A stretch of 64,000 bases of DNA, from the NCBI GenBank assembly GCA_017415995.1, contig JAFQDN010000021.1:1-64000 (forward strand), written 5' to 3'. A program made the translations under genes and the position numbers. Within the stretch, counting starts at the first letter, position 1, and each line of letters starts with the position of its first letter. This DNA comes from Akkermansia sp. Lineage in GTDB: Bacteria > Verrucomicrobiota > Verrucomicrobiia > Verrucomicrobiales > Akkermansiaceae. Below are positions 2,433 through 3,779 of the stretch, one piece after another. Below the pieces are notes generated by a model, which worked only from the letters and a program-made list of their open reading frames with translations, did not search any database and was not told where the DNA came from.

Positions 2433-2864
2433 ATGATGAAACCCTCCCATGATGCCCTGAACTTCGTCCGCAGCAAAGATGGAGACCTCGAATCCCTCAT
2501 GCTCGCTGCATGTTTGACTGCGCTGGGTATTCCGTTTTCGGAACGCCCGGCGTTCAGCGTGTCCGGCGATACAGAGCCGGTGGTAAACTGGCTCTTTGAC
2601 GAGCAATCACTTGATGGCAAGTTCAAAGCCTCCGAGATGATTGCAAAATGGAATGATAAGGGCTGGATTACCCGCGCAGATAATGACCACCCGCTTGCTT
2701 ACATGGCCACAGCTATGCGCAATCTCTACACCCTTGTCAATCACCACATCGGCCAGGCTCCCAACGTGGAGCTGGTGAAGCGAGGACATAAGACGCTCCT
2801 CATTCCTGAGGGTACGCCCGAATCCCAGCTTGGGCTACTTATCAACAAGTTCACAAGGGGGTAA
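2433..2864 (+). CDS. Phage tail-region protein of unknown function
   Basis: A 143-residue mixed alpha/beta protein. ATG 2433 or 2436 is preferred over TTG 2427, which overlaps the preceding stop. It contains RSKDGDLESLMLAACLTALGIPF and WLFDEQSLDGKFKASEMIAKW and ends PESQLGLLINKFTRG. I recognise no family. It is the last gene of the first rightward block; its stop (2862-2864) lies exactly at the U-rich 3' end of the leftward small RNA described below, so the two transcripts converge. A structural or assembly role is inferred only from position. Confidence 0.6.
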   Translation: MMKPSHDALNFVRSKDGDLESLMLAACLTALGIPFSERPAFSVSGDTEPVVNWLFDEQSLDGKFKASEMIAKWNDKGWITRADNDHPLAYMATAMRNLYTLVNHHIGQAPNVELVKRGHKTLLIPEGTPESQLGLLINKFTRG

Positions 2865-2935
2865 AATAGAAATGCCCCCGGTGACAAGTCGGAGGCACTT
2901 CAGGAGAATTGTTTATCAGCGCACAATGTTCTGAT
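2862..2935 (-). ncRNA. Small antisense RNA, candidate type I antitoxin
   Basis: A leftward transcription unit with every part visible. A consensus promoter (TTGACA 2969-2964, 16-bp spacer, TATAAT 2947-2942) predicts a start near 2935. An unstructured 5' part of about 30 nt follows, then an 11-bp hairpin with two G-U pairs (2901-2891 with 2879-2869, 11-nt loop) and UAUUUUA. The 5' part contains AUUGUGCGC, the exact complement of GCGCACAAU in codons 1-4 of the 24-residue peptide at 3137-3063. It then contains UCUCCU, the complement of that gene's AGGAGA. UGAU next to the first block can extend pairing to 13 bp with one bulged base in the start codon. The RNA would block ribosome binding. This is inferred from sequence alone. 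Confidence 0.7.
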
Positions 2936-2941
2936 GGCTTT

Positions 2942-2969
2942 ATTATAGTCAATTGTGACCTCTTGTCAA
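2942..2969 (-). promoter_or_regulatory. Consensus sigma-70 promoter of the small RNA
   Basis: On the minus strand, TTGACA (2969-2964) and TATAAT (2947-2942) are separated by 16 bp. Both hexamers are perfect consensus, the strongest-looking promoter in the prophage. It points left, away from any protein gene, and the next features downstream are the antisense sequence and a hairpin terminator. Strong constitutive expression of a small RNA is the natural reading. Confidence 0.8.
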
Positions 2970-3062
2970 TAGTTTGACTGAAAAATCATCATTTTTTCGC
3001 GTTTTTTCAGGCGACATGCACCCGATCGTTTGTCAGGCGACCGGGTGGAGCCGTATTACTCA

Positions 3063-3137
3063 TCAGAGGTGCCGAAGCACAAACAGGGTTACCTGTATAA
3101 TGAGCAATGCAAGCTCAATCATGTCTATTGTGCGCAT
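3063..3137 (-). CDS. 24-residue hydrophobic peptide, candidate type I toxin
   Basis: The reading frame is 25 codons: a charged N-terminus (MRTIDMIE), then LALLIIQVTLFVL, one membrane segment, and a basic tail (RHL). It has an excellent ribosome-binding site, GGAGGAG six bases before ATG, better than most genes here. A 10-bp hairpin with one G-U pair (3047-3038 with 3028-3019) follows the stop. A second inverted repeat (3010-3003 with 2985-2978) could end the mRNA just before the small-RNA promoter. Size, charge layout and structured mRNA match membrane-acting type I toxins such as Ibs, Ldr or TisB, with no sequence family recognised. It lies backwards inside the phage tail operon, as cargo genes often do. 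Toxicity is not shown. Confidence 0.6.
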   Translation of the reverse strand: MRTIDMIELALLIIQVTLFVLRHL

Positions 3138-3347
3138 GATTTATCTCCTCCAGTCAGGTTCAACTGCTATTCCGTACCCTTGCGAACACATCACATCAGC
3201 GGACAGGACTGGTATACTCCCCGCTGAGAGGTGACATGGCCACCCATCAGCCGAAACTGATAGCGGAAGAGCGTGGAGAGTCTATCATATAGGGGCATTC
3301 CGTTCAAGCCTGAAAGGTATTCACTTTTGACATCCCGCCGATGCATT
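3138..3347. other. Leader and intergenic DNA upstream of the small peptide gene
   Basis: Leftward, this is the likely 5' untranslated region of the peptide gene. It holds an inverted repeat TCAGCGG/CCGCTGA (about 3197-3203 and 3222-3228) that would fold the leader. A possible -10 (TATACC) lies near the loop, but I see no convincing -35. Rightward, it is the approach to the tail chaperone ATG at 3348, with no obvious strong promoter or Shine-Dalgarno. The plus-strand open frames here lack start signals and are shadows. Confidence 0.4.
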
Positions 3348-3779
3348 ATGGCTATACAAATTCACACACAGTCACGTGAGGACAGCAACAATCGCGCTAT
3401 GCTCGCACCGCCCACCCGCACCACCAGCGGGGTAACGCTTCGCCCTATTTCTCTTGGCTCGCTGGAAATCCTGCGCCAGCTCAACAATTCTCTGGCTACC
3501 GCAGAAGCCGACATGGGGGAAATCGACACCCGCACACTCACCGAGTTCCTGTGGGTACACGGAGCCCCGATAGACGAGGTGCTCGATACTGTCTACAATC
3601 ATCCGACTCAGGTCGGGTTGAAAGCCACGGCATTTGCCATGAGCATCAGCCCGGCAGAGCTGAGGGGTATTACCACGTCTCTGGCTGCTGACCGAGCCGC
3701 TATTCAAAGCGCAAGTGCCGAGCCGATTCCTGACCCGGATGCTCCGACCTCCCCAAACGCGCACACCCCTCGCTCGTAG
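3348..3779 (+). CDS. Tail assembly chaperone, zero-frame product (gpG-like)
   Basis: A 143-residue protein from ATG 3348; the upstream in-frame extension is not needed. It has an N-terminal disordered part and a helical domain (SLGSLEILRQLNNSLATAEADM, TRTLTEFLWVHGAPIDEVLDTVYN) and ends in a proline-rich tail DPDAPTSPNAHTPRS. Immediately upstream of the tape measure gene, this is the place of the lambda G/G-T chaperone that coats the tape measure during tail assembly. The tail contains the heptamer C CCA AAC (3752-3758) in the correct phase for -1 slippage into the 3758-3985 extension. The short and extended forms are expected in unequal amounts, as in lambda. Confidence 0.75.
   Translation: MAIQIHTQSREDSNNRAMLAPPTRTTSGVTLRPISLGSLEILRQLNNSLATAEADMGEIDTRTLTEFLWVHGAPIDEVLDTVYNHPTQVGLKATAFAMSISPAELRGITTSLAADRAAIQSASAEPIPDPDAPTSPNAHTPRS

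Follow-up and report, generated by a model that had tools for sequence, protein, structure and literature searches.

A putative new type I toxin-antitoxin family in Akkermansia with diversified specificities and possible RNA anti-addiction arrays

Within a phage tail operon of an Akkermansia genome, a short hydrophobic peptide is encoded next to a small RNA that contains the complement of the peptide's translation start. Do these two features form a type I toxin-antitoxin module, as an initial annotation of the locus proposed, or does their complementarity have another origin? The locus lies in a 64,000-nucleotide stretch of DNA, called the window here. The best reading of the sequences is a putative type I family new in Verrucomicrobiota, with what may be RNA anti-addiction arrays. 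We put at about 0.87 the probability that the locus is a type I toxin-antitoxin module and belongs to a new family with diversified specificities; transcription, the block of translation, membrane toxicity, and the role of the module are inferred. The paralogs, the diversification of specificity, and the secondary arrays lay beyond the single-locus view of the initial annotation and were revealed by the comparison of homologs.

Module layout and the peptide

The 24-residue reading frame with its Shine-Dalgarno sequence, the consensus promoter and hairpin terminator of a short RNA, and both complementary blocks were found where the initial annotation had placed them, and the tandem same-strand layout that it described recurs in the same order in all homologs. 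Its extent for the module (2862-3200) covered real parts but was too small, since a conserved 5'UTR and a toxin promoter reach to ~3307; the whole module occupies window positions ~2863-3307, with all parts on the minus strand. The toxin promoter, recognized by comparison with homologs, comprises a -35 element TTGAAC (3302-3307) and an extended -10 element TGA-TAGACT (3279-3284), and is kept in most copies as TTGAAC-N17-(TGn)TAGAAT. From an inferred start at ~3272, the toxin mRNA would carry a structured 5'UTR of ~135 nt (3138-3272), whose consensus fold, from 20 aligned homologs, has conserved stems with compensatory changes at 9 of 32 pairs. The second stem of this leader, CCAGUC/GACUGG, ends at the Shine-Dalgarno sequence AGGAGA (3144-3149), which is mostly paired in the predicted full-length toxin mRNAs of most classes. 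The leader may be processed, by analogy with those of tisB and zorO.

The reading frame (3063-3137) encodes a putative membrane toxin of 24 amino acids, MRTIDMIELALLIIQVTLFVLRHL, in which a core IELxxLIxQxxLFV follows a variable N-terminus. A single helix is predicted, and a 16-residue window reaches a hydropathy of 2.48. Over codons 6-22, close pairs of homologs differ by 425 synonymous and 144 nonsynonymous single changes, dominated by the third codon position; this excess makes it very likely that the peptide is translated and constrained, and the purifying selection bears out the earlier view that the peptide is real. It is a small hydrophobic peptide, as expected of a type I toxin; its toxicity itself is inferred. 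Against a toxin stands the length, ~25 residues being short for one; Ibs-like toxins are equally short. Past the stop codon, a hairpin without a U-run (3012-3045), present in 16 of 16 homologs folded, is the probable 3' end of the mRNA. This hairpin is strong and variable in sequence between homologs, often with GGCTCC on its 5' side, and may serve as a transcription stop or in pairing with the leader.

Downstream of the toxin gene, the antitoxin promoter TTGACA-16-TATAAT (2969-2942) is the sole 12/12 match to the sigma-70 consensus in 8 kb, and its promoter context is also found in homologs. The antitoxin RNA of ~73 nt (from ~2935 to ~2863) is predicted as a separate transcript from sequence only, that is, from this promoter, a terminator, and a hairpin conserved in homologs. 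In the consensus fold, the recognition hairpin (2915-2935) has an ATCAG/CTGAT stem, which with the adjoining loop displays ATTGTGCGC (2927-2919), the complement of GCGCACAAT (3135-3127), which spans the start codon of the toxin and its codons 2-4. The next block, TCTCCT (2902-2907), complements the Shine-Dalgarno sequence (3149-3144) and is followed by the terminator, a 12-bp hairpin with the U-tract TATTTT (2863-2901), which is conserved in homologs.

Distribution and phage carriage

The genome that harbours the module has about seven copies of it in all, with four matches at the DNA level and seven at the peptide level. Among 76 genomes of Akkermansia species, a peptide profile was positive in 22, with ~48 toxin copies in all and as many as 7 in one genome; none lay in the genomes assembled as a single contig. 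A DNA search matched 20 of the 76, and an antitoxin covariance model 19. Several viral contigs also carry toxin copies, and no DNA match to the locus was found in a phage collection. Outside the genus but within the family, the only match was a weak one in another genus, which was set aside because of an internal stop, and among 388 genomes sampled across 198 genera of the phylum, Akkermansia was the only positive genus. In a pattern scan of GTDB, 33 of 35 stretches came from metagenome-assembled genomes of Akkermansia or Akkermansiaceae, mostly from herbivore guts. Akkermansia-type modules also occur on two contigs binned as Bacteroidaceae and Saccharibacteria (L121 and L122); L121 is identical over the module to an Akkermansia sequence (L150), and both are probably misbinned contigs of metagenome-assembled genomes. 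The module belongs to no known family, with no match in Rfam or Pfam and only unrelated hits below the cutoff in NCBIfam.

In the window, the module sits between two plus-strand phage tail genes, which lie just before a tape measure gene and after a major head protein gene. The first of these genes (2427-2864), upstream of the tape measure gene, has a stop codon that abuts the antitoxin terminator and is encoded on 12 IMG/VR contigs; the second (3348-3779) lies on the other side. Judging from empty sites in near-identical phages, the module is, in phages, a moron of ~480 bp (approximately 2865-3347 here). Two phages (L168 and L169) match a third (L170) at 97-98% on both sides, with 20 bp where L170 has a module-bearing 493 bp, and in the phage nearest to that of the window (97% over the tape measure region), the gap at the site is 11 bp. 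Homologous phages that have the module, and others that lack it, thereby support the proposed phage location. At the homologous phage site, we found the classes MRTIDM (the window), MPTLKW, MNLRNG, MNYRIM, and MSVTTW. Other copies are chromosomal, some of them beside remnants of the tail gene 3' end.

Pairing between antitoxin and toxin mRNA

Could the complementarity be a coincidence between two unrelated features? At the window locus alone, it exceeds chance only moderately: 10 of 1,000 shuffles (~1%) gave a duplex at least as strong, and among 1,278 window stretches that of the toxin ranked 7th, two of those above it being the antitoxin's own complement. As a single locus does not exclude chance, the question is settled by comparison across homologs, whose antitoxins were found by their structure and sequence (model R1) and not through complementarity. 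In 22 distinct pairs, the cognate duplex averaged -16.6 kcal/mol against -7.8 (sd 0.72) after re-pairing, a difference reached by 0 of 100,000 permutations; when each of 17 start sequences (classes) was represented by a single pair, the values were -16.2 and -7.8, again 0 of 100,000. The block of Shine-Dalgarno sequence and spacer also covaries with the antitoxin (-13.3 against -9.5 re-paired, 0 of 50,000). The homologs share ancestry, so the permutations overstate independence and these counts are not independent p-values. Without selection for pairing, repeated matched changes would nevertheless be difficult to account for, and coincidence, refuted by the covariation, can be practically discounted.

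The covarying part of the toxin gene is codons 1-4, which change together with the antitoxin hairpin loop (GCGCACAAT/ATTGTGCGC, GCATGCTATC/GATAGCATGC, GAGAGCAATTA/TAATTGCTCTC, GAACTACCGT/ACGGTAGTTC, and others); in the consensus fold of 16 antitoxins, the recognition stem is nearly invariant and the loop variable. Even some synonymous changes in the toxin are compensated in the antitoxin (MNLRNG, CTT/CTG; MRAITM, ATC/ATT), and classes missed by the RNA model have matches of 8-15 nt at the same position. Some pairs are weak, namely MNSQLM (longest run 5) and MNARIM (-12.4), and related classes such as MNIRIM and MSIRHM may cross-react. That the antitoxin base-pairs with the toxin mRNA, as the initial annotation had proposed, is inferred from the covariation in 22 pairs and has support over some 20 specificity classes. 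A lack of conservation of the pairing blocks in homologous loci would have refuted the proposal; the blocks covary, and no refutation resulted.

The blocks might instead be the arms of a DNA inverted repeat whose likeness is maintained by gene conversion, for instance at the end of a transposon or at a site of recombination; the module is indeed mobile between loci. We consider this very unlikely, as the blocks fall exactly on the start codon and Shine-Dalgarno sequence and in an RNA hairpin loop before a terminator, a peptide under coding selection lies between them, and no transposase or integrase reading frame fits the ~480-bp insert. There are no data on toxicity, many small membrane proteins likewise have one helix, and the location is in phages, all of which would suit the same antisense circuit controlling a peptide that is not a toxin, e.g., a regulated small membrane protein for phage exclusion or lysis timing. 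However, tight dedicated antisense control is typical of addiction modules, as are multiple copies with orthogonal specificities, extra antitoxins, and a patchy, polymorphic distribution; a non-toxic peptide remains conceivable, if improbable.

If the locus is a type I toxin-antitoxin module, the weaker promoter would drive a toxin mRNA whose leader is long and structured; if translated, this mRNA would give a short membrane-spanning peptide that probably depolarizes the host membrane. The strong same-strand promoter downstream would produce a short RNA whose 5' hairpin loop is predicted to pair with the first four codons of the toxin, start codon included, and whose next segment would pair with the Shine-Dalgarno sequence, blocking the start of the ribosome; the duplex would probably then be cut. 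The toxin N-terminus and antitoxin loop have co-diversified into ~20 specificities, so that co-resident modules would mostly not cross-react. Prophages carry the module as a moron, probably for addiction or the exclusion of rivals, and antitoxins stacked downstream would probably neutralize the toxins of other elements.

Known systems and secondary antitoxins

By analogy, the closest mechanism among trans-pairing type I systems is that of zor/orz in E. coli O157:H7, where a hydrophobic toxin (ZorO, 29 aa) is likewise paired with trans-pairing small RNAs of short complementarity (OrzO, OrzP). There, a variable V1 block sets target specificity, zorO being repressed by OrzO and not by OrzP (PMC3919570), and orphan loci with only an orz antitoxin exist (PMC11264685). 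No sequence homology was detected, however, and the zor/orz genes are divergent, whereas the Akkermansia module is tandem on one strand, presents its block in a loop, pairs on the start codon and Shine-Dalgarno sequence, comes in ~20 specificities, is carried by phages, and can have arrays of stacked antitoxins. The divergent order with 5'UTR pairing of the Zor/Orz and TisB/IstR type is not met, the pairing covering the Shine-Dalgarno sequence and codons 1-4. TisB/IstR-1 shares the hydrophobic peptide, structured toxin leader, and short trans-pairing antitoxin (PMC4147584), but IstR is divergent and pairs with a standby site that lies upstream. No SOS box was recognized at the Akkermansia module. 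Ibs/Sib resembles it in that the toxin is a very short single helix, genomes have several copies, and the antitoxin has recognition domains that block ribosome binding (PMC4147584). Sib, though, fully overlaps ibs on the opposite strand, which makes complementarity automatic, whereas the Akkermansia genes do not overlap and their complementarity must co-evolve. No sequence or covariance match was obtained to Ibs, Ldr, Fst, Hok, Sib, IstR, or other catalogued type I families.

According to a 2025 paper, type I systems are restricted to Proteobacteria, Firmicutes, and Tenericutes, with a cyanobacterial one added (PMC12390103). Like the present module, msoT1/msoA1 of Microcystis lies outside these phyla (PMC12390103), but its antitoxin overlaps in cis and it is unrelated. 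As the initial annotation had supposed, we found no type I system reported in Verrucomicrobiota, in literature that did not cover subscription papers. The module would add this phylum to the type I range, in a gut genus of wide interest, and, because non-overlapping genes make complementarity evolvable, the family offers a natural experiment with ~20 RNA-RNA specificities.

Several modules have one or two extra antitoxins directly downstream. Seven of these secondary antitoxins share a promoter motif, TGaCTGAATC...TATAAT, which among the loci examined occurs only at secondary positions. Twelve pair at -22 to -38 kcal/mol with the toxin class of another module (best after shuffling, -13 to -19) and less strongly with their own module's toxin, where known; two match the window toxin (the third copy in G035:C5 and one in G029:C33). 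On predicted pairing, these twelve would qualify as anti-addiction antitoxins, which should pair with the toxin of another element and match none locally. They probably neutralize the toxins of other elements, neutralization in the cell being inferred. Leftovers of deleted modules, matching by descent alone, would also explain them; the separate promoter that they share, together with their intact hairpins, favours a function that has been kept but does not prove it. The absence of target toxins from genomes with secondary antitoxins was not used as evidence, as it was close to random assortment by a rough estimate and the genomes are incomplete.

Resident chromosomal antitoxins that neutralize toxins of mobile elements are known from type II anti-addiction systems (PMC12548467). 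Those are proteins, whereas here small RNAs would be stacked, with promoters of their own and each directed at a different toxin start site, which suggests RNA-encoded immunity between competing mobile elements. The odds seem to us evenly balanced that antitoxin-only stacks are poly-immunity arrays, in which chromosomes and phages collect RNAs against the start sites of phage-borne toxins, with toxin codons 2-4 and RNA loops in a co-evolutionary race, much as immunity-gene arrays act against protein toxins.

The two longest arrays adjoin type I-C CRISPR-Cas and AbiE, respectively. The G035:C5 module with three antitoxins (L135:3700-4410) lies ~0.8 kb past an 11-copy CRISPR array (L135:707-3515) of a type I-C locus with Cas7c, Cas4, Cas1, and Cas2; an MSIRHM module with stacked antitoxins in G015:C39 (L133:3197-5476) is beside AbiEi/AbiEii and PDC-S57, a candidate defence gene. 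A CRISPR-linked reading was rejected, since other copies have no CRISPR-Cas neighbour and the antitoxin can do without a CRISPR repeat. At L014:1819-1925, at L109:1590-1700, and near 800 in L115 are antitoxin-like RNAs whose hairpin has a CATG stem; their loops hint at toxin start sequences absent from our catalogue, perhaps those of unseen toxin classes. For the second antitoxin of G035:C5 (L118:1281-1367), the predicted target in MNYRIM toxins is codons 3-7; several MNxRIM classes share these codons, and the antitoxin may therefore be broad-range.
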